A DNA stretch of 25,616 nucleotides, taken from positions 1-25,616 of the IMG/VR virus record IMGVR_UViG_3300044799_000457; one strand, given 5' to 3'. Source of the stretch: a virus. Positions 1,234 to 20,919 of the stretch are shown here, one piece after another. A model generated the notes under the pieces. The model searched no databases, was not told the origin of the DNA, and worked only from the letters and a program-made list of their open reading frames with translations. The first letter of the stretch is position 1, and each line of letters opens with the position of its first letter. The position numbers and the translations under genes were made by a program.

Positions 1234-2607
1234 GTGGAGACACCCGCACAATCTGATGATGCACTCATTGCCCAGCATCGCCTCGCGCACGCGATGTTTA
1301 TTCGATCTCGCGCTGCCAGCCGGCTAGCTCAGGTTCCTCCGTCTGATTATGGCCTCCCTGATAGTGCCTCTGATTTCTCTCGTGATGTGTTTCGTATTAT
1401 AGAACTCGCATTGCGGGCGGAAGCGCTGTGCGGCGCCCTCACCGACTTCTGGTCCGCTGGTCCCCCCCCCGCTACGTCACCGGACATTACCCAATTACGC
1501 CGGCTCATTGACTGCTGCGATCCCCAAGCCGATCCTGCCCCGCTGGATCAGCTTCTTGCCGTCTGGCTTGGGGAGAGGCAGGATCCGCGGCCGCTCGATG
1601 CAGTATGTATTCATCTTTTTCTCCTGGGCCGGCTACTTAACAAGCTGGAACCGCTCTTGAGTTTCGAGTGGGTTCATAGAGCGCTGGAAGAGTTCATTCA
1701 CTCTGGATTTAGCAGCCTTCACGAAGGTCGAATTGCCTCCGAGCATCTCGTCCAGAGGTTCATTCTCGGTCTGGCCGTCCATCGGATAACGCAGGCGCTA
1801 TCCCGGGGCGAATCGCGGGAGGACTATATCCAGGACAAACTGCTCGGCATGCTGGAGATCGACCGGGGACTAGGGAGGGAATTCGACGCCCTGCAGCGCT
1901 TTGCGAAACAGCCCTCCTCCGCCTTAGGCATGGATCAACTGAGCGGGGTGGATCCGAGCCGGTTTCGGGAGTTCCTCGCTCGGATAATCAAGCTGCTAGG
2001 TAAGGTACTCCTTCGCCGACGGCTCCCCCCGCTGATGCGAGACAGCGACAAGGCCAGGTACGACAAGACCCAAGCCCTGAAGCGCAGAGCCGGTGTGGAA
2101 GTCGCTTACGACGACGGCAAGCGCGAAGATTTGCCACCGGAGCCCCAAGAAATATCCGCCGAACTCCTTGAAACCATTAAGGCCAAGGAAGAGGACGAGG
2201 CCGAGGCTATTGAAGGCACCGAGGCTGAGGTCATTCAGACCGGAGCTGAGGTGACCGAGCCGATCGAGTACGAGTCACCCGAATTCGACGAGGAAGTGGA
2301 GATCCCGGAAGAGCGGCCCCTTATCCGCAAGCCTCGCCTGCTGGACCGGGCGGAGGAGAAAAACATTATCGGCATCTTGGACAATCAAGCTCGCTTGGAT
2401 GTACTCTTCCGGTACCTGAAGGAACAAGAAGGAGGCAAGGCGGTCGAGCTCTTCAAGTTTATAGTCTCCGACCGGCAGGAGGATCCTAAGCGTGGACGCC
2501 CAAACCTAAAAGGGGCCGCCAAACATATCGGAATGAGCTACGATACCGCGAGAGGGGTATGGAGGCGGGCGGAACAGTGGGCACGGGCCGCCTGCGATAA
2601 GCTGTAG
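1234..2607 (+). CDS. Unknown 457-aa protein with acidic linker and C-terminal helix-turn-helix
   Basis: The gene starts at GTG 1234 behind an AAGGGGGAAG ribosome binding site. I do not recognise the family. Residues 1-270 are mostly helical with leucine-rich stretches. Residues about 300-370 form a strongly acidic low-complexity linker rich in Glu. The last 80 residues (LDRAEEKNIIGILDNQARLDVLFRYLKEQ, then GRPNLKGAAKHIGMSYDTARGVWRRAE) resemble a DNA-binding helix-turn-helix of the sigma region 4 or replication-initiator kind. Base and codon use look more AT-tolerant than in neighbouring genes, which hints at separate acquisition. Sitting alone between the XRE/ImmA pair and the replication block, it could be a transcription activator or initiator; that is only inference. 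Confidence 0.75.
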   Translation: METPAQSDDALIAQHRLAHAMFIRSRAASRLAQVPPSDYGLPDSASDFSRDVFRIIELALRAEALCGALTDFWSAGPPPATSPDITQLRRLIDCCDPQADPAPLDQLLAVWLGERQDPRPLDAVCIHLFLLGRLLNKLEPLLSFEWVHRALEEFIHSGFSSLHEGRIASEHLVQRFILGLAVHRITQALSRGESREDYIQDKLLGMLEIDRGLGREFDALQRFAKQPSSALGMDQLSGVDPSRFREFLARIIKLLGKVLLRRRLPPLMRDSDKARYDKTQALKRRAGVEVAYDDGKREDLPPEPQEISAELLETIKAKEEDEAEAIEGTEAEVIQTGAEVTEPIEYESPEFDEEVEIPEERPLIRKPRLLDRAEEKNIIGILDNQARLDVLFRYLKEQEGGKAVELFKFIVSDRQEDPKRGRPNLKGAAKHIGMSYDTARGVWRRAEQWARAACDKL

Positions 2608-3853: not shown

Positions 3854-4156
3854 ATGAGCCTCACACCAACCATAGACCAGCTCTACGATCCGGAAACCAT
3901 GGAGCCTGTGGGCGGCCCCGTCCCTATCTTTTCAGCCGAGGGCGAGCGGTGCCTCTACTGCGGGGGGAGGACCTCCGATCCCGCGATCCAATGGGTCGGG
4001 CTTCAACACCGGGGACAACAACTCGATACGGTTTACCTGCATCCGGTCTGCGCCGTCGAATTCTGCTTGGGCCTCCTCCGGGATGTGCAGGAATGGAAAT
4101 CTATGAGCCACAGTAAGCTGCTTGCGGTGCAACTGCGCGCGGGAGGAGTGCGATGA
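3854..4156 (+). CDS. Small zinc-binding protein
   Basis: This 100-aa protein has a CLYCGG knuckle near residue 33, then LQHRG and HPVCAVEFC, an arrangement (C..C - H - H..C) that again recalls a treble-clef or HNH core and resembles the second half of the gene upstream. The two may be related by duplication. Its TGA overlaps the ATG of the HNH nuclease gene, so the three zinc genes 3321-4719 form one coupled unit. No specific function can be assigned. Confidence 0.6.
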   Translation: MSLTPTIDQLYDPETMEPVGGPVPIFSAEGERCLYCGGRTSDPAIQWVGLQHRGQQLDTVYLHPVCAVEFCLGLLRDVQEWKSMSHSKLLAVQLRAGGVR

Positions 4157-4719
4157 CCGGCGCGGACGCCCTCGTGCAGCTCCAAGCGGTCCAGTCGTTT
4201 CTCCGGCTCCCGCTCGCCCCAGACGGCAAGGTCTATGGGCCAGGATTTTTCCACACGCGCGATTGGGTCAAGTCACTGGAGAGCGAAAACCGCCGGGTGA
4301 CGCTCCGCGTCGGCAGCCGTCGATCCTGTGCGGTCTGCGGTGGGGGTCTTAGTGGTTCGTCAACGGGAGATCACCTGATCCCGCTGGCCAAAGGCGGTCC
4401 CGTGGGCGCCCAGAATTTCTTGCCCCTCTGCCGGTCCTGCAATGCCAGTAAGGGTCCGCGTGACTTCCTCGAGTGGCTGTCCGGGCGATCGTTCGACATC
4501 CGGCTCCTGGATCTGGACGCCGTGTGCGCTTATGCGCGGCTCAAATACGCCTGGCTCAAGGAGGGCGGGCACCTCGGAACCCCCGCCTCACGCGGACTAC
4601 AAGAAACGCTGGCGTCGCTGCGGAGCCGGCTTCCTGAGCGCCACCGAGCGGTTCTCGACGGGCTCCGTTATAACGGAGCACATAGGAAGCCAGATCAGGA
4701 ACAGGGAGCGCAGCCGTGA
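4153..4719 (+). CDS. HNH endonuclease
   Basis: This 188-aa protein contains a textbook HNH core at residues 59-103: C59-x2-C62, D73-H74 in GDHLIPLAKGG, N88 in AQNFLPLC, and C93-x2-C96-N with NASKGP. All metal-binding and catalytic positions are present. HNH enzymes nick or cut DNA; in phages they are found next to terminase (assisting packaging) or replication genes, or as homing endonucleases. Here it precedes the Prim-Pol gene with a GTGA overlap, so a replication or homing role fits better than packaging. N-terminal residues 1-55 are unassigned. Confidence 0.85.
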   Translation: MTGADALVQLQAVQSFLRLPLAPDGKVYGPGFFHTRDWVKSLESENRRVTLRVGSRRSCAVCGGGLSGSSTGDHLIPLAKGGPVGAQNFLPLCRSCNASKGPRDFLEWLSGRSFDIRLLDLDAVCAYARLKYAWLKEGGHLGTPASRGLQETLASLRSRLPERHRAVLDGLRYNGAHRKPDQEQGAQP

Positions 4720-6845
4720 ACACGCCCGACGCAACCACCCTCCTGACCGCGGCCCTTGAGTACCTCACATGGCCGATCCCCGCGATTCCCGTGGACGCGG
4801 ACAAGCGCCCCCTCTGTAAATGGGGTGAGTACTTGACCCGGCCGCAAACCGAGGACGAGGTGCGGAGCTTGCCCTGGGATCGCGCCTACGGGCTCGCGCT
4901 GGTCACCTGGCCGGGGTCGGAGCTCATCGTCCTGGACTTCGACGGGCCCTGTGCCATGGCGGCGTGGAAGGCGACGGGGATCGAGCTTCCGCCGACGTGT
5001 GCCGTCCGCACCCGGAGCGGCTGGCTGCACGCAATCTACCGCACCCCGAGCGGCACGCCGCGCCCGGGCACGAATGGGAACGATCCGCGCCGCAAGGTGC
5101 GTCTCATCAAGGCGGCAGGTTGCGCCTGCACCAAGAAGTGCGGCGTGGACCTGCTCCTCAATGGCTACTTTCTGACGATTCCCACCCCCGGGTACCACGA
5201 GAATCCGGATTTCCCCTTCGAGCAGGGCCGGCTCGCCGAGATCCCGCAGGCCGTTCTGGACCTGGCCCGGGCGACCGCGGGCACGACCGGGACGCCGGAC
5301 AGCGCTGGACCCATCCCGGAGTCCGAGATTGCCCGGTTGCTCGCCTACGTCCCCCACGGGGAGATGCACGCAGCGTTGCTGACCCTGGCCGGCCATTTCG
5401 CCGCGAAGCTCGGCCCCCGCGAGGACGAGATCCTCGGCATCATCGAGCCCGCCACGCGGCAGTGGCAGCAGCCGGTGGACCTGGAGAAGGTGCGGCAGAC
5501 CGTCAAGGGTGTTGTGGCGATGGAGCAGCAGAAGCGGCAGCGATCCCGGAGAGGCCCCGAGCCGCCGGAGGAGCAGGCGCGAAAGCCCATACAGCATACG
5601 CAGGCCCAGCCGAACGGCAGCGCTCCCCCTCCAGCAGCCGAGATTGCCGAAGCCCCGCCGCTCCAAGTGCCCGAGGCGGGCATGCTCGGGATCGCGCGGG
5701 AGTTTGCCACGCTGTATGCGAGCCACCTGGAGGCGCCGACGAGCTTCTTCTACTTTACATACTTGACCTATCTCGGCGCGCTGCTCAGCCGGCAGATCTC
5801 CCTCGTCTCCGCCCTGGACATCGAACCCCGGTTGTACACCGTCCTCGTCGGCGAATCGTCCGACACCCGGAAGAGCACAGCCCTTCGCAAGACGGACCAG
5901 TTCTTCCGCTCCCTGGCCGGCTACGAGCTGACGGTATTACTCGGCGCCGGGAGCGGGGAGGGGCTGGCGAAGGCGCTGCAGGAGTCGCCGGAACTGCTGC
6001 TGCACTATGACGAATTGAAAACCTTCGTGTCCAAGGCGCAGGCCGAGTCAAGTGTTCTCCTGCCGATGGTGGGCAGCCTGTTCGAGCGCCATGAGTATGA
6101 CAACCGGACCAAGGAGGGGTCGATCAGCGTGCGAGGGGCGAGCCTCTCGCTCGTCGCCGCGTGCACGCAGGAAACCTACAGTACGATGTTCGACCGGCGC
6201 TTTCACGCCATCGGGTTCCTGAACCGGCTGTGGCTGGTGGCCGATCGCACCACCACGCGGATCGCCATGCCCCCGCCGTTCCGTCCGGACGTGCTCGACC
6301 GCCTGCGGGATCAGACCATAAGTCTCCTCAAGGATATCCAGGGGCGGTATCGGCAGAAGAACTACCAGCGGGTCGAGTTCGGCCTCACCAAGGGCGCAGA
6401 GGCGATGTTCACCGCGTGGTACCTGCAGCGGCAGGGGACGATTTTCGAGAAGCGGCTCGAGACCTACGGGCATCGCTTAATGCTGCTCCTCACCGCCATG
6501 GCCGGCAAGGATCAGGTGGACGAGGAGATCACCACGGCTGTCGTGGCCCTGCTGCGTTACCAGTTGGATGCCCGGCGGGAGCTTGACCCGGTGGATGCTG
6601 AGGGCACTATCGCGATCCTGGAGGAGCGGGTTCGGCGCACGCTGGCCCGGGGGAGGTTGAGCGGGCGGGAGCTCCGGCGCCGACTTCATCCAGAACGGGT
6701 CGGCATCTGGATGTGGAATACGGCTATCGAGAACCTTCTTCACGGCTCACGTGAACTGCACTGGGATCGGAAAACGGACATCTACTGGCTGACAGGTGTC
6801 ACCATCACTGTCACCACACCTCAAACAGGGCCTAACTCATGGTAA
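4716..6845 (+). CDS. Prim-Pol domain replication protein with C-terminal ATPase (DUF3987-like)
   Basis: This 709-aa protein starts at GTG, overlapping the HNH stop. Residues 15-200 form a bifunctional primase/polymerase domain: catalytic D74-F-D76 in LIVLDFDG, H105 in RTRSGWLHAIYR, and the GVDLLLNGYFLTIPTPGYH segment. A CAC...KKC cysteine group (near residues 135-143) is an insertion that could bind zinc. A proline-rich hinge (about 280-325) leads to an ATPase-like domain: VLVGESSDTRKST (about 375-387) is a variant P-loop with RKS in place of GKS, and LLLHYDEL (about 427) is the Walker B. Such fusions initiate and prime replication of plasmids, phages and satellites. The candidate origin lies directly downstream. 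Confidence 0.85.
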   Translation: MNTPDATTLLTAALEYLTWPIPAIPVDADKRPLCKWGEYLTRPQTEDEVRSLPWDRAYGLALVTWPGSELIVLDFDGPCAMAAWKATGIELPPTCAVRTRSGWLHAIYRTPSGTPRPGTNGNDPRRKVRLIKAAGCACTKKCGVDLLLNGYFLTIPTPGYHENPDFPFEQGRLAEIPQAVLDLARATAGTTGTPDSAGPIPESEIARLLAYVPHGEMHAALLTLAGHFAAKLGPREDEILGIIEPATRQWQQPVDLEKVRQTVKGVVAMEQQKRQRSRRGPEPPEEQARKPIQHTQAQPNGSAPPPAAEIAEAPPLQVPEAGMLGIAREFATLYASHLEAPTSFFYFTYLTYLGALLSRQISLVSALDIEPRLYTVLVGESSDTRKSTALRKTDQFFRSLAGYELTVLLGAGSGEGLAKALQESPELLLHYDELKTFVSKAQAESSVLLPMVGSLFERHEYDNRTKEGSISVRGASLSLVAACTQETYSTMFDRRFHAIGFLNRLWLVADRTTTRIAMPPPFRPDVLDRLRDQTISLLKDIQGRYRQKNYQRVEFGLTKGAEAMFTAWYLQRQGTIFEKRLETYGHRLMLLLTAMAGKDQVDEEITTAVVALLRYQLDARRELDPVDAEGTIAILEERVRRTLARGRLSGRELRRRLHPERVGIWMWNTAIENLLHGSRELHWDRKTDIYWLTGVTITVTTPQTGPNSW

Positions 6846-7217: not shown

Positions 7218-7349
7218 ATGGTGCAGGAGCCAGTGAAGGAGCAGGAGATGGAGTCGTTCATGGGGATCGCAGTGGCAGCGCAGCGGGCAGGCGGCCGGGT
7301 TGCCGGGCACCCTCGAATTTCGGTGGAGCGAGCAGACCGTGAACGATGA
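7218..7349 (+). CDS. Possible small ORF of 43 aa
   Basis: ATG 7218 opens 43 codons rich in Glu at the start (VQEPVKEQEMESF) and ends TGA at 7347-7349. There is no clear ribosome binding site apart from a distant purine-rich stretch, and an iteron repeat sits directly upstream. It could be a real microprotein or chance. No family is recognised. Confidence 0.22.
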   Translation: MVQEPVKEQEMESFMGIAVAAQRAGGRVAGHPRISVERADRER

Positions 7350-7704
7350 GCGTCGGATCACGACAGGCCCCCTGACCCCCCCCCACCGCGGTCGCCCCCG
7401 GAAGGCCGGGCCTAGGCACAATCTGGGCACAGGGGGTCCGCAGGTGGCGACAAAATCAGGCGAAAATGGCGGGCCGCTGGCTTCCTTAGCCATCGCGCCG
7501 GTGGCCCCGCGGTTGCTTAATTTGCACAGCGCCGCCCGCTACCTTGGCGTGTCGGAGTGGACCATCCGCGACCTCGAGACCGCAGGCACGCTTCGGCGGG
7601 TGCGCCTCCCACTTCCGAACGGTGGGGAAGTCCGCAGGCTTTTATTTTGCAAGGAAGATCTCGACACCCTCGTGGACAATTCGAAGGACACCACGAATGG
7701 CTAG
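7339..7704 (+). CDS. Excisionase/MerR-like helix-turn-helix protein
   Basis: The C-terminal 60 residues form an HTH_17-type winged helix: LLNLHSAARYLGVSEWTIRDLETAGTLRRVRLP, a wing with GGEVRRLLF, then CKEDLDTLVDN. This is the layout of excisionases and small element-encoded DNA-binding proteins. The start is uncertain: GTG 7339 has GGAG ten bases upstream, but TTG 7300 and GTG 7444 are also in frame, and the first 65 residues look disordered (proline, glycine and arginine rich). Its stop overlaps the next start. It may help the integrase excise the element or regulate the packaging block; its place directly before the terminase genes favours the second. Confidence 0.7.
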   Translation: MNDERRITTGPLTPPHRGRPRKAGPRHNLGTGGPQVATKSGENGGPLASLAIAPVAPRLLNLHSAARYLGVSEWTIRDLETAGTLRRVRLPLPNGGEVRRLLFCKEDLDTLVDNSKDTTNG

Positions 7705-8086
7705 CGCACTGAAAGGCAGGATGCCAAGGTGCCTCCCCGATCATAGGTCGCGTGAAGGCAAGCGGTTACGAGAGGTTTACCTCGAGTTCATAGGAAAACA
7801 TCCAGACGCCCCCGGCCCGGCCCGCCGCATCGCCTTGATGGCCGCTGAAGCATGGATCTCATACGAGGACCTGGGGATACAGATTGCCCGTGCGAAGCGA
7901 AACAAAAGATCCGCCCTGGAGATCCGCCGCTTGGCAAAGGGGCGCAGGTTGGCCGCTGGACACTACCTCGGCGGGATGCGAGAGCTTCAGGCACTGATCG
8001 ATCGAGACGGGCATAAGCCCTCCGACCTGGCCCAGGCGATCCAGACCGCCCAGCAGCGCAGCCTCGAGGATGGAAATGGACGATAA
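7697..8086 (+). CDS. Probable terminase small subunit
   Basis: This 129-aa protein overlaps the large terminase by 17 bases and the HTH gene by 8. It is basic and helical: REGKRLREVYLEFIGKHPDAPGPARRIALMAAEAWISYEDLGIQIARAKRNK, later RLAAGHYLGGMRELQALIDRDG. Small terminases recognise the packaging start site and regulate the large subunit, and they usually lie immediately upstream of it. I cannot point to a diagnostic family motif, so the call rests on position, size and composition. The ATG at 7697 fits the coupled start better than the in-frame upstream codons, which lie in the preceding gene. Confidence 0.55.
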   Translation: MASALKGRMPRCLPDHRSREGKRLREVYLEFIGKHPDAPGPARRIALMAAEAWISYEDLGIQIARAKRNKRSALEIRRLAKGRRLAAGHYLGGMRELQALIDRDGHKPSDLAQAIQTAQQRSLEDGNGR

Positions 8087-9650
8087 GGACCTCCACCGCT
8101 ACGCCATGGATCCGGCCTTCTTCGTTGACCGTTTCGTGAGAGTGAACGAGCTCGGGCAGCCCTTCCGGCTGATGGACCACCAGCGGGAGTTTCTCCGGCT
8201 GGCCTTCGCCTTCGACGACGCCGGCCTGCTTCTCTGGACCACGCTCGTTTACGGTGCCATCAAGAAGTCAGGGAAGACTTTCCTTGAAGCGCTTCTTGCC
8301 CTCTGGTGGGCCTATTGCCACGAGGCGCCGAACGAAATCATAGCAATCGCGAACGACTTAGAGCAGGTCCAGGCGCGTGCCTTCAAGTCCATGTGCGGCC
8401 TTATCCGGTACAACCCCGCGCTCGCACGAAGCGCCGAAGTGTTGACCAAGCAGATTATCTTGAGCAACAGGACCACGATCACGGCGATTGCCTCGGAGTA
8501 TGCAGGCGCCGCCGGCTCGAATCACGGCTTCACCGGCTGGGATGAGCTTTGGGCCTACACCTCCGAGGCCTCGCACCGATTGTGGGAAGAACTGACTCCA
8601 GTGCCGACGCGCCGGAATTCCGTTCGCGTCGTGACGACCTGTGCCGGCTGGGAAAATGAGAGCGAACTGCTTCGGGCTCTGTACAAGCAGGGCGTCGGGA
8701 AGGAGGAGCATCCCGACGGCCAAGGTGAGCGCCTCCACCCGACACTGCCCATTTTCGCCAACCAGGATGCGCGCCTTCTGGTCTACTGGGACCACGAGCC
8801 GCGCATGCCGTGGCAAACACCATCCTACTACGCGGCCCAGCGCCGGACCCTCCGCCCGGGGACGTACCTCCGCCTTCACGAGAACCGGTGGACCACGTCC
8901 GAGTCAACCTTCATCACGCCCGAGCTGTGGGATCCGTGCGTTGATCCCACCCTCTCGCCGCCACTGCCGACGCGGAGCGTCTCTCTCTTCGCCGGCGTGG
9001 ATGCAGGCATCAAACACGACAACGCGGCGGTGGTGACAGTCTACTGGAAGGAGGACAAGCTGGCCCTCGGCCCCTTCCGAATCTGGCGCCCCTCACCGAG
9101 CGAGCCCCTGGACATCGAGGCCACCATCGAGGAATTCGTCCGCGAGCTGCACGAGCGGTACGACCTGGCCTCGGTCCTCTGTGACCCCTACCAACTCCAC
9201 CGCTCCATCACGACCCTGCAGGCGGCCGGGCTCCCGATCGCCGAATTTCCGCAGACCACATCCAATACGACGCGCATGGGGCAGGGCCTCTTCGATCTTC
9301 TCCAGGGCCGGAACCTCCGACTCTACCCGAGTGAGGCACTTCGTGGCCAAGCTCTCAACACGATCGCCGTCGAGACGCCCCGGGGCTGGCGGATCGCGAA
9401 GGAGAAAGCATCCAAAAAGATCGACGCGGTTGTGGCCCTCGCGATGGCCGTTACAGCCGCCCTGGATGACGCCCCGCCGGCCGGCCCCAGCGCGGCCGAC
9501 CTGCAACGAGCGGAAGCGCAGGTGGCCACCCTCACGCTGGCGGTGCAGCAATGCGCGAGCGGCGAGAATTTGCAGGCTTTGGCGGCGGCGAAACGAGACT
9601 TCAGCGAGAAGCGCCGGTGCTACGTCGGCGAGCACCTCGGCTGTTGGTGA
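8070..9650 (+). CDS. terL: Phage terminase large subunit
   Basis: This 526-aa protein is a full two-domain packaging motor. The ATPase half has GAIKKSGKT (Walker A, residues 62-70) and GWDEL (Walker B, D158-E159). The RNase H-like nuclease half has its three acidic residues in GVDAGIKHDNAAVV (D311), SVLCDPYQLH (D372) and KKIDAVVALAMAV (D452). The enzyme cuts concatemeric DNA and pumps it into a procapsid through the portal. All key residues are intact and the length is normal for the family, so it is probably functional. A charged extension follows residue 470. Oddly, no portal or capsid gene follows, as the tape measure gene begins 214 bases later. Confidence 0.93.
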   Translation: MEMDDKDLHRYAMDPAFFVDRFVRVNELGQPFRLMDHQREFLRLAFAFDDAGLLLWTTLVYGAIKKSGKTFLEALLALWWAYCHEAPNEIIAIANDLEQVQARAFKSMCGLIRYNPALARSAEVLTKQIILSNRTTITAIASEYAGAAGSNHGFTGWDELWAYTSEASHRLWEELTPVPTRRNSVRVVTTCAGWENESELLRALYKQGVGKEEHPDGQGERLHPTLPIFANQDARLLVYWDHEPRMPWQTPSYYAAQRRTLRPGTYLRLHENRWTTSESTFITPELWDPCVDPTLSPPLPTRSVSLFAGVDAGIKHDNAAVVTVYWKEDKLALGPFRIWRPSPSEPLDIEATIEEFVRELHERYDLASVLCDPYQLHRSITTLQAAGLPIAEFPQTTSNTTRMGQGLFDLLQGRNLRLYPSEALRGQALNTIAVETPRGWRIAKEKASKKIDAVVALAMAVTAALDDAPPAGPSAADLQRAEAQVATLTLAVQQCASGENLQALAAAKRDFSEKRRCYVGEHLGCW

Positions 9651-9672
9651 TGGCGTGACGAGGAGGGCAGCG

Positions 9673-9864
9673 ATGCGAGCTACAGCACAACCGACCACCC
9701 TGGACCTGATCTTTCGCGGTCTGGACCTGTGCGACTCATGCGGGATGCACCTGGAGCCGGCAGACCAAATCGCCGGGCTTTGCGCCAGGTGCGATCCGCC
9801 GCGGCGTGCCCCCGTGCACACGTCTGTACGACTCGCCAGCCGCCAAGGAAAGGAGGGTAGGTGA
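9673..9864 (+). CDS. Small two-knuckle zinc-binding protein
   Basis: This 63-aa protein has two CxxC pairs, CDSC and CARC, 18 residues apart, forming a probable zinc ribbon. The ribosome binding site GAGGAGGG precedes the ATG by about seven bases. Its TGA overlaps the ATG of the tape measure gene (TGATG), so the two are translationally coupled. It fills the place where portal, capsid and tail genes normally lie. Its function is unknown; many phage zinc ribbons of this type bind DNA or act as small adaptors. Confidence 0.65.
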   Translation: MRATAQPTTLDLIFRGLDLCDSCGMHLEPADQIAGLCARCDPPRRAPVHTSVRLASRQGKEGR

Positions 9865-12443
9865 TGCCCCAGGACAATGTGATCAGCATCCGCGTGGTCG
9901 TGAAGGACGACGGCAGCATCGCCCTGAAGCAGGTGGCCCAGTCTACCGAGGACCTCGGCAAGAAGGCCGCGGCCGGCTCCGAGGGCATGGTCAAGCTGAA
10001 TGCCGCCGGCGCGGAGGCACGCGGGATCTTCCAGGGCCTCGGTCAGGAGGGGGCGGGCCTCCTCGGACGCTTCGGCGGGCTGCTCACCGTCCTGGGGCCC
10101 GTGGGGATCGGGCTGGGGGCCGCGGCCTATGCCGCTACCACTGCCGTCTCGGCGTTCACGGGCTTTGCCTCCCAGGTGCGGGACCTTTCCTTCCTTTCTG
10201 GTGGCTCGACGCGTGACACCTCGGTCCTCGTCGCGGGTCTGGAGCACATGGGCGTCAGCTCTGGTGCCGTGGAGATCGCCATGCGCGCCATGTCGGCGGC
10301 GGTTGAGAACGGCTCGCCGGTCCTCAATAAGCTCAAGATCAGTCTTATTGACATGAGCGGGGCGCAGAAGACCGGGCTGACTCTGTTCTACGAAACGATC
10401 GACGCCCTGCGCGCTATGCCGAACGAGATGGAGCGCAACCGCCTCTCGCAGCAACTCTTCGGGCGCAGTTTCCTGGAGTTGATCCTCGCCATCCAGCGCG
10501 GATCAGGAGCCATCAAAGAACTGGGTGAGGCGTCTGGGAAGTTCCTCACGGCAGAAGATCTCGAACGGGCGAAGCAGTACACCCTCGCCGTCGCAGAAGT
10601 AGGCGAGGTGTGGGACCGAGCCAAGATCAATCTTGGAAGGGGCATCATCGCGCCGATCACCTTCGTACTGAAGTGGCTCGGGACGGCAGGTGAGGAGACC
10701 ACTCCGTATGAGGAGTCTAAACGCATTGGCGAAGCTTTTGGCATGATGTTTCCGCAGAAACCGTCCGCCCCACCCCTAGAGTCCTATTTCGCGTCGGAAG
10801 CGGCAATGCAGGCGAATGTCTTTCGGCAGACCGGCATGCAGGCTCCCCCCTTCGACATTCAGGCGCTCCAGCGGAAGATCTTCGAGTCCCAGACTATGCA
10901 GATGCAGGCGGCCGCCCGGGCGACGCTGGCCACCAGCCCGGCCGCCATCCTCTCTGCGCAAGCCGACGCCCTCCGGGCCGCCCTACGGGGGGAGTTGGCG
11001 AAGTTCGCAATAGAGGCTCACGCGCAGGGGCTGACAGATGAGCAGATCTCCCCGCGCAGGATCGCCCTGACTGCGCAGACCAACGCCGCGATCGAGAAGC
11101 TCACGCGCGATAGCCTCCTGCGGCAGGCCGAGCCGCTCATTAAGTTCTATGACGACAGCCAGGCGATGGCCGAGAAGCAGTACGAGGCGCGGGTGAAGAT
11201 CGAGCAGGATATCACCGGGGCTACGCTGAACGAGAACGATAAGCGCCTCCGTGAGGTCGAGACCTGGCAGGAGACCAGCCTCAAGAGCATCCAATCCGTC
11301 TACGGGGAGAGCTTGGAGGGAGCGAGCCTCATCACGGCGGTCTACGCCGAGAGCGGGCGGCGGCGCGTCGAGATCGAGATTGAGACGGCGCGGAAGATCG
11401 GGGATGCCCTGAAGGGGCAGACGGATACCTTCGAGGAGGCCTATCGGCTCCAAGGCCAGCCGGTGACGCTGGACTGGGATCGCTACTATGCTGGCTTCCT
11501 CAAGCAGTTCTCCGACGCGCAGACGAAGTTCCAGAACGCCCTGACGGCGCCGATCCAGATGCGGGCCATGAGCCTCGGCGGCCCGCAACTCCTCCCCTAC
11601 GCCGAGTACGAGGACCGCCTGACGAAGATCGGCATCACCGCGCAACTCATCGGCCGGCAGTACTTCGACCCGCTCTCCAAGAGCATCAGCGAGACGCAGA
11701 GCACGCTTGAAGCCCTGGTGGCCAACGGCGTGGACCCGGCCAGCGAGCGCATGCAAGGACTCAAGACGAGGCTTGCCGATCTCCAGGACCAGTTCGAGCG
11801 GCGCGAGATGTTCCGCAATGTGTTCGACGAACTCTCGTCCGGGATTGCCGATTCGGTCCGGGGGGTCGCCCAGGGCACGCAGACCATGGGGCAACTCTTC
11901 ACGAACCTGGGGTACACAGTCCAGGCTAGCCTTCTCAACATGATCGTGAAGAACGGTCTCCAGAAGCTGGATCGCTACCTCGAGGACTGGTTGACGGAGA
12001 ACGGCGGTTTCTGGGCCCGCCTCTTCGGCTTCGGCGCCGGGGCGATGATGACTCACGCGCCGCTCGAAGGCACCACGGCAGTCGTGGCGGATATCCTGCG
12101 CGGGTCCGGCGGCATCCTCCCCGGTACCTTCGCCCCCCTCCGCCGCTTCGCCTGGGGCGGCATCTCCGACGGCCCGATGCTCGGGATGATCGGCGAGGGG
12201 CGGTATCCCCGCGAGGCCGTGATCCCGATGCCCGATGGCCGGTCCGTGCCCGTCACCTTCACCGGCCCGGCGAGCAACGAACCGATGAAATTAACGGTGA
12301 ACGTGATCAACGAGAGCGGGGTCCCGCTCGCCGTGAAGCAGACCACGACGCGCCGGAGCCAAAGCGAGCAGGTAGCACAAATCTTCATCGGCCTCACGGT
12401 CACCAATCCGGATGTCCGTGCGGCGATAGCGGCGGTGCGATGA
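9864..12443 (+). CDS. Phage tail tape measure protein
   Basis: This 859-aa protein starts at ATG 9864, seven bases after AGGAGG; the in-frame GTG at 9861 is less likely. The N-terminus (VISIRVVVKDDGSIALKQVAQSTEDLGKKA) and following hydrophobic glycine/alanine segment (about residues 65-110) are typical of tape measure proteins, followed by long helical regions. The C-terminus has the family-typical GGISDGPMLGMIGEGRYPREAVIPMPDG. Tape measure proteins set tail length and enter the host envelope during DNA injection. At 859 residues it would predict a tail of roughly 120-130 nm by the usual 1.5 Å per residue rule. Tail tube, chaperone and major tail protein genes are missing upstream. Confidence 0.9.
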   Translation: MPQDNVISIRVVVKDDGSIALKQVAQSTEDLGKKAAAGSEGMVKLNAAGAEARGIFQGLGQEGAGLLGRFGGLLTVLGPVGIGLGAAAYAATTAVSAFTGFASQVRDLSFLSGGSTRDTSVLVAGLEHMGVSSGAVEIAMRAMSAAVENGSPVLNKLKISLIDMSGAQKTGLTLFYETIDALRAMPNEMERNRLSQQLFGRSFLELILAIQRGSGAIKELGEASGKFLTAEDLERAKQYTLAVAEVGEVWDRAKINLGRGIIAPITFVLKWLGTAGEETTPYEESKRIGEAFGMMFPQKPSAPPLESYFASEAAMQANVFRQTGMQAPPFDIQALQRKIFESQTMQMQAAARATLATSPAAILSAQADALRAALRGELAKFAIEAHAQGLTDEQISPRRIALTAQTNAAIEKLTRDSLLRQAEPLIKFYDDSQAMAEKQYEARVKIEQDITGATLNENDKRLREVETWQETSLKSIQSVYGESLEGASLITAVYAESGRRRVEIEIETARKIGDALKGQTDTFEEAYRLQGQPVTLDWDRYYAGFLKQFSDAQTKFQNALTAPIQMRAMSLGGPQLLPYAEYEDRLTKIGITAQLIGRQYFDPLSKSISETQSTLEALVANGVDPASERMQGLKTRLADLQDQFERREMFRNVFDELSSGIADSVRGVAQGTQTMGQLFTNLGYTVQASLLNMIVKNGLQKLDRYLEDWLTENGGFWARLFGFGAGAMMTHAPLEGTTAVVADILRGSGGILPGTFAPLRRFAWGGISDGPMLGMIGEGRYPREAVIPMPDGRSVPVTFTGPASNEPMKLTVNVINESGVPLAVKQTTTRRSQSEQVAQIFIGLTVTNPDVRAAIAAVR

Positions 12444-12453
12444 GGAGAACACG

Positions 12454-12843
12454 ATGAACGAGGCGCAGGTACTCCTGGAGAACTTCGGCGAGCGGCTTGC
12501 GGAAATCACGCCGGCGGTCCTCCGATACCTCGATTGTCACTCAGCCATGCGGGCTCTGCAAGAGATCAGGGCCCTGAACCGGATCAACCAGGAGGTCCCC
12601 CTGGACGACCGCGGGTTCGAGGGCAAGGCCGCCGTGGCCCCCGCGATGACCGTGAAGCTCTTGGAGCAATGCAACAAAATCATGGCCATCCTCCGGGTTG
12701 CCCTTCGGAGCCGACGGCCCACCAAGGAGATTACCAGCCTCCTCGCCGAGTTGGACGAGGGCGCCGAGTTACTTCAAGAAGCGGCGGAATTTCTCAAGGA
12801 GGTGATCGATGGATCCCAAAGTCGGCCTGATCCTCATCCATAA
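12454..12843 (+). CDS. Hypothetical helical protein of tail module
   Basis: This 129-aa protein is almost wholly helical (AVLRYLDCHSAMRALQEIRALN, then VKLLEQCNKIMAILRVALRSRR, then LLAELDEGAELLQEAAEFLKEVI). The ribosome binding site GAGGAG lies upstream of ATG 12454. Its end overlaps the tail-tip gene by 35 bases. Genes between tape measure and J-type proteins normally encode distal tail or assembly proteins, but this one has no recognisable family signature. Confidence 0.6.
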   Translation: MNEAQVLLENFGERLAEITPAVLRYLDCHSAMRALQEIRALNRINQEVPLDDRGFEGKAAVAPAMTVKLLEQCNKIMAILRVALRSRRPTKEITSLLAELDEGAELLQEAAEFLKEVIDGSQSRPDPHP

Positions 12844-13474
12844 CCCCTTCGACCCCTACGGGTCGCGGGATATCCGGGCGCTGCCGTACCGGGTCGGCGC
12901 CGCGGTGCCGGAGTACCTCGCCCCAATCGCCCCTGCCGATGAGTATGTCGTCAGCCTCAACGGTGGCCTGATCCATCCGGCTGTCCTGGCCCAGACGATT
13001 CCCTGCCCCGGCGATCAACTCGTTGTCTGCCCGCTCGTGGAAAAGGGCGGCGGCGGGAAGGACGTGCTGCGCGTCATAGCCATGATCGTGGTGATGATCG
13101 TGGCCGGGGCGATCTCAGGCGGGGCGCTCGGTCCCGCAGGCCTTGCTCTCCTTGGTGAAGGGTTCGCGGCTGGCGGGGCTGGCGCCTTCGGTCTGGGAAT
13201 TGCCGTCGCCCTCGGCGGCTCCATGCTGGTCAATGCCCTCCTCCCGCCCGCCAAGATGGACTCGCTGTCTCTCTCCGGCCTCGGCGGTGACCTGGCGGGT
13301 TCGGCCACCTACGGCTGGAATGGCCCGCAGACCATGTGCCAGCCGGGGATTACGATCCCCGTGCTGTACGGGACGACGAAGATCGCTGGCAACGTTATTC
13401 AACATTCGGCGGCGGCGGAAGGGGACGACAAATACGCGAACCTCCTCCTCGCCCTCAAAGAGGAGCGGCGGTGA
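12809..13474 (+). CDS. Short tail-tip (J/TipJ-type) N-terminal domain protein
   Basis: This 221-aa protein matches the N-terminal part of phage host-specificity protein J. It has a ubiquitin-like start ending in EYVVSLNGGLIHPAVLAQTIPCPGDQLVVCPLV, a GGGGKDVLR turn, a long hydrophobic Gly/Ala stretch (residues about 86-145), then SATYGWNGPQTMCQPGITIPVLYGTTKIAGNVI, the classic J segment. Full J proteins exceed 1000 residues; this one stops at YANLLLALKEERR, just where the baseplate-forming domains normally continue. The ribosome binding site AAGGAGGTGAT is ideal and the stop overlaps the next start (GTGA), so the short form looks stable and translated. It may anchor to the tape measure but lacks receptor-binding parts. 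Confidence 0.75.
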   Translation: MDPKVGLILIHNPFDPYGSRDIRALPYRVGAAVPEYLAPIAPADEYVVSLNGGLIHPAVLAQTIPCPGDQLVVCPLVEKGGGGKDVLRVIAMIVVMIVAGAISGGALGPAGLALLGEGFAAGGAGAFGLGIAVALGGSMLVNALLPPAKMDSLSLSGLGGDLAGSATYGWNGPQTMCQPGITIPVLYGTTKIAGNVIQHSAAAEGDDKYANLLLALKEERR

Positions 13475-14019
13475 GGCCCACCTATCAGCGGGTCCGGTTT
13501 GGGACTGATCAGGATTGTCTCAGGGCCTGCTTGGCCAGCATTTTGGAGGTCCCACATGAGGCTGTACCCGACATTCCGCCCGGGCCTGGATGGATCCTGC
13601 TGATTCAGCAATGGCTCGGGCAGTTTGGGCTCGGGTTGCAGGGGATGCGCGCGCTCGTGCCGGAGAGTTTGCCAATGTTCCCGCCGGGACTCGTCATTGC
13701 GGGTGGAAAAGCCTCGGGGGGGGTGGACCACGCGTGCGTCTACCGTGCCGTTCGGCGGCCGGGGGGGATCGATGTGGAATTCGAGCTCGCCCACGATCCA
13801 TGGGTTCCACCGGACTTCATCGAGGCACACCGTGAGGCCCTGCAAGCCCACGGCTGGTTTGCCGGCCTTCAAGGCACCTTTGAGGACTGGAGCTTCTGGC
13901 CCCTCGTGGTGACCGACTTCCGGCTGCTGGTGCGGTGCCTCACGACGCTCGAACTCGTGGCACCCGATCCCGCGAAGGCTCCCGCGGCGCCGCCACCCGA
14001 TGCACCCGACGCGGGATGA
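13471..14019 (+). CDS. C39-like cysteine peptidase-fold protein
   Basis: This 182-aa protein starts at GTG overlapping the tail-tip stop. The N-terminus VRPTYQRVRFGTDQDCLRACLASILEVPHEAVPDI follows the pattern of C39-like papain-fold proteins found in phages and bacteria, with candidate nucleophile C16. The partner residues are H87 in GGVDHACVYR and D109 in LAHDPW. It ends with a disordered Pro/Ala tail. Tail modules usually carry an NlpC/P60 peptidase next to J for cell-wall digestion; this may be a replacement, though many members of the family have no proven activity. The fold call is based on remembered sequence pattern only. Confidence 0.65.
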   Translation: MRPTYQRVRFGTDQDCLRACLASILEVPHEAVPDIPPGPGWILLIQQWLGQFGLGLQGMRALVPESLPMFPPGLVIAGGKASGGVDHACVYRAVRRPGGIDVEFELAHDPWVPPDFIEAHREALQAHGWFAGLQGTFEDWSFWPLVVTDFRLLVRCLTTLELVAPDPAKAPAAPPPDAPDAG

Positions 14020-14085
14020 TCTGGAGAGAAGAGAGCAGTGAGCGAAAGGGAACGCAAGCCCGACAACGGGAGGAGGTAAAAGGCC

Positions 14086-14322
14086 ATGCCTAATTACGTG
14101 CACAGACCGCCCACGTCGCAGATCCAGGATAACGACGTGGTCCTCGAGCTCGACGTAAGCCCGGCGCTCCGGACGAATCCGCCCGGGGATGTAAAGAGGC
14201 TCGTACTCTTCGACGACGGGCCGAGTTCACGAACGCGCTACACGCTCATTTGCCCCTGTGGCGTTGAGTCATATTCGAACACCCGCCCACGACGGTGCCC
14301 TGGATGCCACCGGGTGTTGTAG
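14086..14322 (+). CDS. Small zinc-ribbon protein
   Basis: This 78-aa protein has a GGAGG ribosome binding site upstream of ATG 14086. Its C-terminal half forms a zinc ribbon: CPCG...CPGCH at residues 62-75 (ICPCGVESYSNTRPRRCPGCH). The N-terminal half (residues 1-50) is probably strand-rich and contains DVVLELDVSPAL. Such proteins may bind DNA or RNA. No named family is recognised. Confidence 0.6.
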   Translation: MPNYVHRPPTSQIQDNDVVLELDVSPALRTNPPGDVKRLVLFDDGPSSRTRYTLICPCGVESYSNTRPRRCPGCHRVL

Positions 14323-14361
14323 GAGCGACAAGGCCACCCACTACAGAAAGCGAGGCAAAAA

Positions 14362-15081
14362 ATGTTCGGAAAAAAGAATGAAACCTCCCCAGTCGCCGTG
14401 ATTGAACCGGAGCCAGCCGTGGTGCAGATTGAACCTGCCCCGGTCCCCGCTTCGGTCACCGTTCGCGTCGTGCGGCCGCTCTTCGAACAGGGCGCGAACT
14501 ACAAGCCTGACGATGAATTTTCTGCCACCACCGCGCGCGCGGCGCAGCTTGAGAAGCTCGGCCTGGTGGCGATCGTTGATCCAAACGCCCCGCCCCCAGG
14601 GCCGAAGCTCCAGGTGGCCCGTGAGGAGTTCCACAAGGCTGGCGAGGAGTCCGCTGGCCGCACTCGCGAGCGAACCGCGATCGAGAGGGAGGTCCACGCG
14701 GCCGAGGAGACGGTCAACGGCCTACAGGTTGTCTTGAAAGCGGCGGATGGCCTCGAGGCGGTCCGGACCGCCCAGGACGCCCTGACCGCCGCGGGACACG
14801 ACCTGGAAACCAAGCGCGCGCTCCTCTTGAGTGTCGCGCAGCGCGCGCAGGCGGCGAACATCAAAGCCCAGGCAGCGCGGAAGAGGGTCGAAGACTTGGA
14901 AGATCGGGCAACGTGGATCAAGGGTGAGGGGATCCCAAAACAGCGAGAACACTTGGAGAGTTGCCGGCGCATCTATGCCGAGAAGCAGACGGACGCACGC
15001 GCCATCCTGGAGGAGCGCGTTCACCCGAGCGAGGTTGCGCTGGCGGCGCTCCAGACCGAGCTCTCGGCGATCGAAGGCTGA
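14362..15081 (+). CDS. Coiled-coil protein with phage DUF7210-like N-terminal domain
   Basis: This 239-aa protein begins with a Pro/Glu-rich segment, then VTVRVVRPLFEQGANYKPDDEFSATTARAAQLEKLGLVAIVD (residues 32-73), which resembles the small phage domain that reads V.V..l...G..y.pGd......A..L...G.V, usually a stand-alone head-tail associated protein. The remaining 150 residues are charged heptad-like helices (for example REVHAAEETVNGLQVVLKAADGLEAVRTAQ), predicting a long coiled coil. The fusion is unusual. A structural or scaffolding role is possible, as scaffold proteins are often coiled coils, but this is inference. Confidence 0.6.
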   Translation: MFGKKNETSPVAVIEPEPAVVQIEPAPVPASVTVRVVRPLFEQGANYKPDDEFSATTARAAQLEKLGLVAIVDPNAPPPGPKLQVAREEFHKAGEESAGRTRERTAIEREVHAAEETVNGLQVVLKAADGLEAVRTAQDALTAAGHDLETKRALLLSVAQRAQAANIKAQAARKRVEDLEDRATWIKGEGIPKQREHLESCRRIYAEKQTDARAILEERVHPSEVALAALQTELSAIEG

Positions 15082-16100: not shown

Positions 16101-16130
16101 AGGGGCTGGTTCTGGCCGTGACTAGCCCCT
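16101..16130 (+). terminator. Stem-loop downstream of small-gene set, possible terminator
   Basis: AGGGGCT (16101-16107) pairs with AGCCCCT (16124-16130), extended inward by a G-T wobble pair, around a 14-16 base loop, followed by TATCTAGG. The T-run is poor, so termination would be weak. It separates the structural/accessory genes ending at 15995 from the zinc-finger and GIY-YIG genes. Confidence 0.3.
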
Positions 16131-16177
16131 TATCTAGGCTCTGCGTTGCGTATACGGGCATCAGGGAGGAGCAAAGG

Positions 16178-16429
16178 TTGTCTGCCACCGTGCGATGCCA
16201 GTTTTGCGGGAAGAGTTTTGAAGCCAAGCAGGAGGCCCGAGCGCGTTTCTGCGGGGACCCGTGCCGCTGGGCAGCGTGGAAGCAAAAGAGGGAGGACCAC
16301 GCCAGGGCGCCGTTGGAGCGAGCATTGAGGGTTCTCGTGGCTCGGGTGGATGAGTTGTTCGCAGCGGCCGAAGCGGCGAAGGCAGCCCTGAAGGCTGATC
16401 GTGCAAACAGGGATACTGATGCCACCTGA
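16178..16429 (+). CDS. Zinc-finger protein
   Basis: A TTG start at 16178 is chosen because GGGAGGAG lies six bases upstream; an in-frame GTG at 16118 has no such site. The 83-aa product has CQFCGKSFEAKQEARARFCGDPCRWAAWKQ (C..C - C..C), a zinc-knuckle module found in many phage small proteins and predicted to bind nucleic acid. A charged helix follows (RALRVLVARVDELFAAAEAAKAALKAD). The downstream nuclease starts inside its end and carries a similar CSSEC motif, so the two may have arisen from a common module. Confidence 0.6.
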   Translation: MSATVRCQFCGKSFEAKQEARARFCGDPCRWAAWKQKREDHARAPLERALRVLVARVDELFAAAEAAKAALKADRANRDTDAT

Positions 16430-16976
16430 GACCCCGCCCACGTTCACGCTGTCTTGTGAGCAAACCGAGGCGATGCGGCGCTCCCTTGTCTACATCCGCC
16501 GGCGGCTGTCTGACGGGAAGGCGCTCTATATCGGCTCCTCTACGGATGGCCTCTCCCGGCCGCTTGCGAGGACACACGAAAAAGCTCGCCTGAGCGAGGG
16601 TGAAGTCCTGGAGGTATATCTGACCGACAGTCCCCGTGAACTTGAAGCCCGCTTGATTCTCAACGAGCGGCCCGAGTTGAATTACAACGGTCCGAACTCC
16701 TCCGTTCACTCTTCGGTAAAGGCCGCTCTGTATTGCGCGGTCTGTGAGCGACCCCTTTCCAATTGCCACGGGAGAGCAGTCTTCTGTAGCAGCGAGTGCC
16801 AGAAGGCCGCTAGGTTGGCCCCGCAAGAGTGCAAGACCCTCCGCGAGAAGCTCTGGACCGCCCAGGCGGCCCAGAAGGACTATGACGCTCGGCTCGGGGG
16901 GCTGGTCAAAACGCTGGTGAAGCAGGCTCGCCTGCTGGCGAAGGAAGTCGGGCTGGCGCCGGAGGACATGGCCTAA
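16419..16976 (+). CDS. GIY-YIG nuclease-like protein with C-terminal zinc finger
   Basis: This 185-aa protein starts at ATG 16419, overlapping the previous stop. Residues about 23-90 follow the GIY-YIG fold: LVYIRRRLSDGKALYIGSSTDGLSRPLARTHEKAR (both tyrosine strands and the catalytic arginine), then ELEARLILNERPELNYN, with the metal-binding glutamate and closing asparagine. A zinc finger CAVC...CSSEC follows (about residues 106-130), then a long helix. GIY-YIG enzymes cut DNA in homing, repair and restriction. With the HNH gene this makes two element-encoded nucleases. The call rests on motif order; the first motif reads VYI rather than GIY. Confidence 0.7.
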   Translation: MPPETPPTFTLSCEQTEAMRRSLVYIRRRLSDGKALYIGSSTDGLSRPLARTHEKARLSEGEVLEVYLTDSPRELEARLILNERPELNYNGPNSSVHSSVKAALYCAVCERPLSNCHGRAVFCSSECQKAARLAPQECKTLREKLWTAQAAQKDYDARLGGLVKTLVKQARLLAKEVGLAPEDMA

Positions 16977-17538: not shown

Positions 17539-17871
17539 ATGGCCAGCCCCCGTCTCCTCATCCCTACCGTCCTCCCGCCGCTCTCGGCCGCGGAGGAAGC
17601 GATCCAGCGGGCGAAGGTCCGGCAGGAGGCCGAGCGCCTGGCCCGGCGCCTCCGGTACCTCCAGGCCATGACGCCCGGATGCCCCAGGACGATCACGGGG
17701 GCGATCCCGATGAGGGGCTCCTACGCCATGCCGGAGTCGGGGTTGCGGAACCGGTGTCCGAATTCGGACACCGCCCGTAAGGTGAAGGTGGGGGAGTTGT
17801 TGGAGAAGGAGGCACCCATGGCCCTGATACTTCAGATTAAGTGCAGTGGATTTCGTGAAACGGGTAGGTGA
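17539..17871 (+). CDS. Small protein with GAIPMRGxYAMP motif (paralogue A)
   Basis: This 110-aa protein, MASPRLLIPTVLPP at the start, has a charged helix (AEEAIQRAKVRQEAERLARRLRYLQ) and the motif GAIPMRGSYAMPES near residues 56-69. The gene at 22856 has the same start (MAPRVLIPQIVEP) and GAIPMRGAYAMPAS. Within that motif the two genes differ at nearly every third codon position but at only two amino acids, which shows selection on the protein. It lies eight bases after the RHH stop and ends four bases before the topoisomerase B start. No known family. A 22-base palindrome lies in its coding sequence. Confidence 0.7.
   Translation: MASPRLLIPTVLPPLSAAEEAIQRAKVRQEAERLARRLRYLQAMTPGCPRTITGAIPMRGSYAMPESGLRNRCPNSDTARKVKVGELLEKEAPMALILQIKCSGFRETGR
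17752..17773. repeat. Perfect 22-bp palindrome inside a small gene
   Basis: The half-site CGGTGTCCGAA (17752-17762) is followed directly by its exact reverse complement (to 17773), with GAATTC at the centre. It lies in the coding sequence of the small GAIPMRG protein, about 100 bases before the topoisomerase B start. A regulator site or an enzyme recognition site are both possible. Confidence 0.75.
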
Positions 17872-17875
17872 TGCT

Positions 17876-19216
17876 ATGGGTCCGCGCCTCAGTCGCACGA
17901 CCTTTCGCACCAGCCGGCTGCTGGACTTCTTTTCGGAGAAGGAACTGGTGGCCCAGATCGGTCACCCCAAGGAGCAGTGGCCCCTCGTGGTGCTGAAGGA
18001 ACTCGTGGACAATGCGTTAGACGCCTGTGAGGAGGCCGGGGTCGCCCCGGAGGTGACGGTCAACCTCGACCCGGCGGGCATCACCATCAGCGACAACGGC
18101 CTGGGGCTTCCGGCAAAGACCCTCAAGAGCATCCTAGACTTTCGCCTCCGCGTCTCGGCCCGGGAGGCCTATGTCAGCCCGACCCGGGGGGCCCAGGGCA
18201 ATGCCCTCAAGACGATCCTAGCCATCCCCTACGTCCTGGACGGTACTGCTGGCACGGTGGAAATTGCCTCCGGCGGGAGGCGTCATGCCATCACCGTCCA
18301 GGCCGACCAGATCCGGCAGGAACCGATCATCCACCAGACCGTTCACCAGGATGGACTTGTAAGAACCGGGACAACGGTCACGCTCTGCTGGCCCGATTCA
18401 GCTTGCTCACTCCTGACGGATGCCCGGGAGCGATTTTTACAAATGGCCGAGGCCTACACCTGGCTGAACCCTCACCTCAGCCTGACGCTCTCCCTCTTCG
18501 AGGAACGCCTTCAGTTCCCAGCCACGGCCCCCACCTGGCGGAAATGGGGGCCGAGCGATCCGACCTCGCCCCACTGGTACACGGCCGAGCATCTGGGGCG
18601 GCTGGTGGCCGCCTACCTCACCCACGATGCCGATGCCGGGCGGGAGGAACGGACGGTCCGGGAATTCGTCGCGGAATTCCGGGGCCTATCGGGGACGGCG
18701 AAACAACGGGCTGTCCTGGAGGCGACGGGGCTGGCGCGGGAGAAGCTGTCGGCCCTGCGAAACGCCCACGGCCTGGATGCCCAGGCACTCGCGCGACTCC
18801 TCGCGGGCATGCGCACGCACTCGTCCCCGGTCAAGCCGGCCAGCCTCGGGGTGATCGGTCGGGACCATCTGGCCGCCCGGTTCGCAGCCTTGGGCTGCAC
18901 CATGGAGACGTTCAACTATACACGCAAGGCCGATGTCTCGGAGGACGGCTTGCCGTGGGTGCTAGAGACCGCCTTCGGCTGGTGCGAGACGCTCCCGGGG
19001 CGCCGCTCCATCATCGGGGTGAACTGGTCCCCCGGCATTGTCAACCCGTTCCGGGAGCTGGGCGTGGGGCAATCCCTCGACACTATCCTGGAGCGACAGA
19101 AGGTCGGACGCGACGAGCCGGTCATTCTCTTCCTGCACCTGGCCCAGCCGCGGGTGCAGTACGCCGACCGTGGCAAGTCCAACGTGGTGGTAGACGGCGA
19201 CAACGATGGAAATTAA
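17876..19216 (+). CDS. Topoisomerase VI subunit B-like GHKL ATPase
   Basis: This 446-aa protein starts at ATG 17876, four bases after AGGTGA; an in-frame GTG at 17846 lies in the preceding gene. The GHKL ATP-binding fold is clear: N-box KELVDNALDAC (E42, N46), ISDNGLGLP (D73-x-G75) and RGAQGNALKT (residues 104-112), the last a variant of the usual GxxGxG with Ala in the third place. A middle region (about 230-300) fits the helix-two-turns-helix insert, and the transducer-like end contains FLHLAQPRVQYADRGKSNVVV, where K434 is a candidate switch lysine. Topoisomerase VI B closes on ATP to drive strand passage by the A subunit. It is shorter than archaeal B (about 530). Confidence 0.88.
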   Translation: MGPRLSRTTFRTSRLLDFFSEKELVAQIGHPKEQWPLVVLKELVDNALDACEEAGVAPEVTVNLDPAGITISDNGLGLPAKTLKSILDFRLRVSAREAYVSPTRGAQGNALKTILAIPYVLDGTAGTVEIASGGRRHAITVQADQIRQEPIIHQTVHQDGLVRTGTTVTLCWPDSACSLLTDARERFLQMAEAYTWLNPHLSLTLSLFEERLQFPATAPTWRKWGPSDPTSPHWYTAEHLGRLVAAYLTHDADAGREERTVREFVAEFRGLSGTAKQRAVLEATGLAREKLSALRNAHGLDAQALARLLAGMRTHSSPVKPASLGVIGRDHLAARFAALGCTMETFNYTRKADVSEDGLPWVLETAFGWCETLPGRRSIIGVNWSPGIVNPFRELGVGQSLDTILERQKVGRDEPVILFLHLAQPRVQYADRGKSNVVVDGDNDGN

Positions 19217-20853: not shown

Positions 20854-20919
20854 CCCCCGCGTCAGCGCGACCTGACCGGGGGCATGGCCCACAACCCCAG
20901 CCTGAGAAGGAGGAGAGGC
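20854..20919 (+). ncRNA. Hairpin leader repeat, copy 1
   Basis: A strong two-part hairpin (CCCCC and GTCAG pairing with CTGAC and GGGGG, 20854-20882) is followed by CATG, then GCCCACAACCCC, AGCCTGAGAA and a ribosome binding site GGAGGAG ending at the ATG of the next gene (20920). Two further copies occur at 23135 and 23465. Copy 1 and 2 share the hairpin almost exactly, and all three share GCCCACAACCC. It looks like a 5' leader element controlling expression of the next gene, not coding sequence; the function is unknown. Confidence 0.55.

Follow-up and report, generated by a model that had tools for sequence, protein, structure and literature searches.

A probable satellite-like element of a Nitrospira-order bacterium with a complete terminase and no recognised head genes

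A terminase beside a tape measure gene

The stretch of DNA considered here, called the window throughout, is a metagenome-derived IMG/VR record (IMGVR_UViG_3300044799_000457) of 25,616 bases, in which the gene for a complete large terminase (TerL) is followed almost directly by that for a tail tape measure protein (Table 1). An earlier note on this DNA had remarked that TerL retains its ATPase and nuclease residues, that only a 63-aa zinc protein lies before the tape measure gene and that portal, capsid, head-tail and tail-tube genes are missing; it suggested a capsid-less element that borrows heads. TerL is indeed intact: residues 20–489 match phrog_9 (E 2.8e-43), the Pfam TerL nuclease is matched too, an alignment of seven relatives shows no variation at KxSGK, DELW, D311, D317, D372 and D452, and a profile search finds the solved terminase 6z6d. 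The spacing is also as described, with the TerL stop at 9650 and the zinc frame starting at 9673.

The tape measure frame starts at 9861/9864, overlapping the end of the zinc frame, and the AGGAGG upstream of it sits within that frame. Could this junction be an assembly chimera, in which part of a siphophage tail block (about 9864–13474) was attached to a capsid-less element? It has been seen once, in a single metagenome record, and the tape measure has no close relative in IMG/VR and only weak ones in Nitrospira-order genomes. On the other hand, the frame overlap, the ribosome-binding site inside the zinc frame, the tight packing of the genes downstream, a GC content of 63–66% throughout the junction, and the adjacency of TerS (small terminase) and tape measure genes on megabase contigs (see below) make a chimera quite improbable.

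No portal, protease, capsid, connector or tail-tube family from PHROG or Pfam matched any window protein scanned. The joint scan took in 21 window frames together with 73 unassigned frames of bounded relatives (94 in all) and covers the best 25 of 70 PHROG and the best 25 of 30 Pfam families. Nor did structure prediction bring out a divergent capsid, for which the earlier note had allowed. Two frames longer than 200 aa carry no annotation, and their models, single-sequence and weak, look unlike a capsid: 1234–2607 is predicted, at low confidence, to be all-helical, and 14362–15081 to be mostly coiled coil. A capsid hidden among the frames without annotation thus finds support in neither families nor models.

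Terminase relatives with and without a portal

Relatives of TerL occur at 40 viral-contig loci, in 32 of which a portal homologue follows, including the closest three (L002, L004 and L008, 48–54% identity); phages of this terminase type therefore have head genes at that place. Closer relatives are found in bacterial genomes, at 68% identity in L049 and 66% in L050, from a Nitrospira metagenome-assembled genome (MAG). Altogether, TerL relatives are present in 6 of 235 Nitrospira-order genomes and in 7 of 297 genomes of the phylum of a Binatia MAG (of eight matches in G003's phylum, four were fetched as wide regions). None of the nine wide genome regions fetched has a portal homologue, and the overall comparison is 32 of 40 viral-contig relatives versus 0 of 10 element loci. 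Two contigs are short: L049, which is counted in the tree as a capsid-less element row, ends 0.36 kb after TerL and cannot show that a portal is absent, while L065 (G001) ends 2.3 kb after TerL, with a protease and no portal between. The assignment of L049 to Planctomycetota may reflect misbinning, with a match in 1 of that phylum's 343 genomes.

A maximum-likelihood tree of 51 TerL rows places the window in a seven-row set made up entirely of integrated elements (96/95) and in a ten-row set (91/90), with the portal-linked phage rows outside both and G387 standing apart. Allowing for the fragmentary L049, the absence of head genes is common to the window's nearest kin, which makes a recent, private deletion the less simple reading. 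The earlier note had looked to relatives carrying the missing genes at the same place as a sign of such a deletion; they do exist, but only among more distant phages, which keep the portal (and the protease), and the nearest relatives are without them.

These comparisons bear on whether the window is a decayed prophage, that is, a siphophage that lost its head genes, most of its tail genes and the rest of the tail protein J by deletion, the remaining frames being intact by chance. Phages with a related TerL do keep portal and protease at this position, and J is reduced to a stub, with genes missing between it and the tape measure in comparison with L043. Decay is nevertheless unlikely, considering that the nearest TerL relatives are all in loci where no portal was found, several of them complete elements, that the integrase, AlpA-like helix-turn-helix (HTH) protein, primase and topoisomerase VI (topoVI) match element genes, and that the frames are open and overlapping.

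Two further features of the TerL loci may be mentioned. A head-protease homologue follows TerL in four Nitrospira-order loci where no capsid was found (L059/L060 of G018, L062, L063/L064 of G169, and L065), and on visual inspection its His and Ser residues seem to be conserved; the coiled-coil protein of the window was considered as a homologue of the coiled-coil protein that follows the protease in Nitrospira elements, which was not supported. In other loci, TerL relatives lie in over-long single frames with inserts of several hundred residues (L028 1895–4555, L022 8717–11320, L030 4288–7533 and L037 8201–10768), which are possibly inteins.

Complete elements at tRNA genes

Direct repeats of 20–53 bp that overlap a tRNA gene, 10.2–14.9 kb apart, bound the element in six of the seven loci tested: 14.4 kb at tRNA-Arg (G018, on a 4.2 Mb contig), 11.1 kb at tRNA-Ser (G175), 14.9 kb at tRNA-Pro (G460), 14.0 kb at tRNA-Arg (G460b), 14.9 kb at tRNA-Ala (G430) and 10.2 kb at tRNA-Ser (G387). 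All six attachment-site (att)-bounded elements hold an integrase, a primase, an HTH protein, a TerS candidate and TerL. They contain 101 called frames, covering 82–89% of each element, and the 73 without assignment gave no portal, capsid or tail-tube match among the families of the joint scan. (A phrog_7043 "tail protein" match in the G018 element was rejected as a tail gene; that family also matches 10 of 14 control genomes.) Since intact relatives organised in this way are found in bacterial chromosomes, the lack of shell genes is most likely a design common to the family and not the result of damage. The TerL clade and the six att-bounded members, in which the scans show no head or tail genes, support the idea of a satellite-like element that lacks a capsid and has a packaging specificity of its own.

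The rest of the backbone points to the same bacterial order. The window integrase is 52–63% identical to integrases of nine Nitrospira-order genomes, and seven of the eight loci fetched with this integrase type (the eighth is a 3.8 kb contig) have both an AlpA-like HTH homologue (43–53% identity) and a tRNA gene just after the integrase. In G168, AlpA, TerS, a 25% identical TerL, an XRE regulator and the integrase lie within 4 kb beside tRNA-Thr.

The window might instead be a composite of two adjacent elements, one with TerL and the other with topoVI and the integrase. It is longer than its bounded relatives, and elements lie in tandem in G149 and may do so in G029. Against this, G460b carries TerL, a topoVI B-A pair and an integrase in one 14.0 kb att-bounded element, with topoVI between the other two, and the window has a single recognised integrase, so that a composite seems about as doubtful as a decayed prophage.

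Some cargo genes were noted in passing. The topoVI-type subunits of the window, a phage-like element, have close counterparts, as A and B pairs, in two IMG/VR contigs (L045 and L046) as well as in the bounded capsid-less element G460b (L082). AbiJ N-terminal, NYN, radical SAM and antitoxin-like domains, found in one frame each of the scanned elements, look like defence or addiction cargo, and L156 (G232), from an element whose integrase is of the window's type, encodes a putative TIR-like protein at 13970–14737.

The tail genes

Tape measure proteins set the length of phage tails and supply the DNA-entry channel. The one encoded in the window looks full-length, because both its N- and C-terminal regions match tape measures. 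The frame at 12809–13474 has matches both to the tail-tip protein J (phrog_31, E 3.9e-16) and to tail assembly protein I (phrog_32), and is regarded as an N-terminal J stub because its relative in L043 is 1514 aa long; the window also lacks the three genes by which tape measure and J are separated in L043. The truncation of J argues that the tail block is incomplete.

Rather than being parts of the particle, the tape measure and J stub could act against the helper as decoys or inhibitors of its tail assembly, in defence or interference. Only parts of a tail block are present, and island systems that interfere with tail assembly have been described (PMC11364771). The apparently full length of the tape measure speaks against this reading, to which we assign a low probability.

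Viral contigs of IMG/VR yielded no relatives of the primase and no close ones of the tape measure, and the window's own tape measure lineage was found in no other element. On contig C200 of G149 (L061 15000–20000, L087 1–9992), genes for a capsid protein, HNH and TerS are followed 9 bp later by the tape measure gene; the locus adjoins a TerL element, portal and TerL were not recognised nearby, and this second G149 element is without defined ends. Tape measure relatives are present in 23 of 235 Nitrospira-order genomes, from which 20 regions were fetched. TerS directly precedes the tape measure in three more loci among these (L130, L136 and L140–L143), in G128, G126 and G029, with gaps of 18, 29 and 9 bp, respectively; in the other 17 of the 20 regions no homologue of the G149 TerS is next to the tape measure. 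An integrase frame follows the tape measure in G128, G126 and G029, with an excisionase-like frame between them in the first two.

Two of these elements are bounded by repeats on large contigs: 15.8 kb at tRNA-Lys in G128 (48 bp repeats, 4.69 Mb contig) and 16.1 kb at tRNA-Glu in G029 (45 bp repeats, 4.32 Mb contig). Their 44 frames include TerL, protease, TerS and tape measure in G029 and TerS and tape measure in G128, with no other structural family among the best 25 of 31 PHROG families. The G029 element holds two integrases and may be two elements in tandem. As the window tape measure is only remotely related to those of G128, G126, G029 and G149, these loci are parallels in design and not orthologues of the window junction. 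The proposal that the element has a working tail length determinant of its own is thereby made plausible, but no more than that, through four independent loci of the same order, and is weakened by the truncation of the neighbouring J and the isolation of this tape measure lineage.

Other genes of the window

The remaining genes are listed in Table 1. A 44-bp repeat (95% identical copies at 20854–20897 and 23135–23178) holds an inverted repeat (CCCCCG...CGGGGG) and is possibly regulatory.

Table 1. Features recognised in the window
Feature	Position	Strand	Basis or remark
HTH regulator (HTH_31)	113–502	+	Pfam; left-end regulatory pair with Peptidase_M78
IrrE/M78-type peptidase (Peptidase_M78)	484–1143	+	Pfam; left-end regulatory pair
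457-aa protein, predicted all-helical, HTH-like C-terminus	1234–2607	+	No family match; low-confidence model
HNH endonuclease	4153–4719	+	Pfam HNH
Primase/helicase (DUF3987)	4716–6845	+	42% identity over 422 aa to primase of capsid-less element G460a
AlpA/excisionase-like HTH	7300–7704	+	43–53% identical homologues in Nitrospira-order loci
TerS candidate, start codon uncertain	7640–8086	+	Position; 28–34% identity to frames before TerL in L049, G001, G018
Large terminase TerL, complete, 526 aa	8070–9650	+	phrog_9, Pfam, motifs, profile
63-aa CxxC zinc-ribbon-like protein	9673–9864	+	Overlaps tape measure gene start
Tape measure protein, 860 aa	9861–12443	+	phrog_1292, phrog_12798, phrog_167
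129-aa protein between tape measure and J stub	12454–12843	+	No family match
J stub, 221 aa: tail-assembly-I-like part and first J residues	12809–13474	+	phrog_31, phrog_32; relatives L042–L044
Phage protein phrog_5845, start assumed	13477–14019	+	PHROG match
Small beta domain and long coiled coil (predicted)	14362–15081	+	phrog_2616 at residues 34–96; model mean pLDDT 68
Two zinc-finger/HNH-fragment-like proteins	16118–16976	+	One weakly similar to frame just after TerL in L049
Topoisomerase VI-type B subunit	17846–19216	+	Pfam; B-A pair also in G460b
Topoisomerase VI-type A subunit	19206–20465	+	Pfam; B-A pair also in G460b
XRE regulator	22645–22851	+	48–60% identity to XRE regulators of elements in G018, G149
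Tyrosine integrase	23919–25109	+	52–63% identity to Nitrospira-order integrases adjoining tRNA genes

A proposed life cycle

The window probably covers the greater part of a satellite-like, integrative element from a Nitrospira-order bacterium, which has a TerS-TerL motor, an integrase, an AlpA-like regulator and a primase, has no head genes, and would pack its DNA into helper procapsids. It shares with the capsid-less TerL elements a TerL of the same clade, an AlpA-like HTH protein and TerS candidate upstream, and no portal downstream. Gene content, TerL clade and complete att-bounded relatives are direct observations, from which we infer how such an element would work. In the presence of a helper phage, the element would excise and replicate by means of its own primase; TerS-TerL would then dock on the helper's portal, and helper procapsids would be filled with element DNA. 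The block of tape measure, 129-aa gene and J stub would have been added to this backbone, and the element's tape measure might replace or compete with that of the helper during tail assembly, setting the tail length or the DNA-entry channel. These last two steps are less sure; the role proposed for the tape measure is suggested by the independent TerS-tape measure elements of the same order.

Several points weigh against this interpretation. A single metagenome record is the only source of the element; neither att repeat nor tRNA was found within the window, the ends of which may be cut, and its 25.6 kb compares with 10–16 kb for the bounded relatives. The TerS candidate has no PHROG family match, the junction of TerL, zinc protein and tape measure was seen in no relative, and a truncated J is what would be expected of a decaying tail block. 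The PHROG absences rest on the best 25 of 70 and the best 25 of 31 families. A helper prophage, which the earlier note had proposed looking for in the host, was not identified: portal searches of host genomes gave 0 of 12 records with phrog_12 and 1 of 8 with phrog_2662, a weak match in G387 that is broken by a stop.

Comparison with known satellites

How does such an element compare with the satellites already described? In general, the window has the integrase, regulator and replication genes of a phage satellite and lacks the head and tail sets, the tape measure and J stub being present nonetheless; of a complete siphophage prophage, it lacks the portal, capsid, tail tube and full J. Capsid-forming phage-inducible chromosomal islands (cf-PICIs) encode integrase, AlpA, primase, HNH, TerS, TerL, capsid, protease, portal and connectors, and depend on the helper for tails only (PMC10690885, PMC10448857). 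The window resembles them in the first six genes (TerL and HNH are assigned by family, TerS by position and weak identity) and would likewise borrow from a helper. The cf-PICIs, in contrast, have their own major capsid, portal, protease and connectors, of which none was recognised in the window; its bounded relatives likewise lack capsid and portal, and the window adds a tape measure.

The classical PICIs, including the Staphylococcus aureus pathogenicity islands (SaPIs), are small integrated elements with their own replication that redirect packaging through a terminase subunit and use helper capsids (PMC10690885). The window would be similar in all these respects, except that the classical elements combine a TerS or TerS-binding protein with the helper's TerL, whereas the window has a complete TerL of its own. 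The RepA_N satellites of E. coli are tRNA-proximal and att-bounded, and lack most tail genes but code for a tape measure and for a component of the baseplate hub; they have capsid and decoration proteins and no terminase, the reverse of the window (PMC10448857). A putative satellite from glacial samples, ML_43_3791, is a 15.8 kb circular scaffold with a terminase, a phage tail gene, a prim-pol and a P4-type integrase; unlike the window it carries ParB and a resolvase (PMC4490671), the comparison being by description and not by sequence. Like the window, the AH14b satellite prophage of Pseudomonas has its own primase; it is carried in the capsids of its helper, probably in concatemeric form, and no terminase gene is identified in it (PMC4936722).

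In the open-access literature searched, judged from titles and the beginnings of abstracts, neither capsid-less terminase elements nor terminase-tape measure elements of the Nitrospira order were recognised, nor was any phage satellite in that order found described, and the family of capsid-less TerL elements appears to be undescribed there.

Implications

Known satellites supply a motor together with a shell, or else no more than an adaptor or a terminase subunit, while this family has a complete motor and no shell. Such a design implies that TerL works on a foreign portal, so that the compatibility of motor and portal becomes testable. The tape measure is the only complete tail gene of the window and recurs beside terminase genes, which raises the question of whether satellites re-specify the tail length or DNA-entry channel of their helpers. 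More tentatively, and with less than an even chance of being right, the Nitrospira-order satellites could be a broad class that supplies the packaging motor and tape measure of a borrowed particle, choosing which DNA is packed and the tail length or injection competence, without coding for shell or tail tube; the window would then be the form with TerS and TerL, and G128, G029, G126 and G149 the form with TerS before the tape measure. If the window is indeed a satellite, phage satellites would extend to the order of the nitrite-oxidising Nitrospira.

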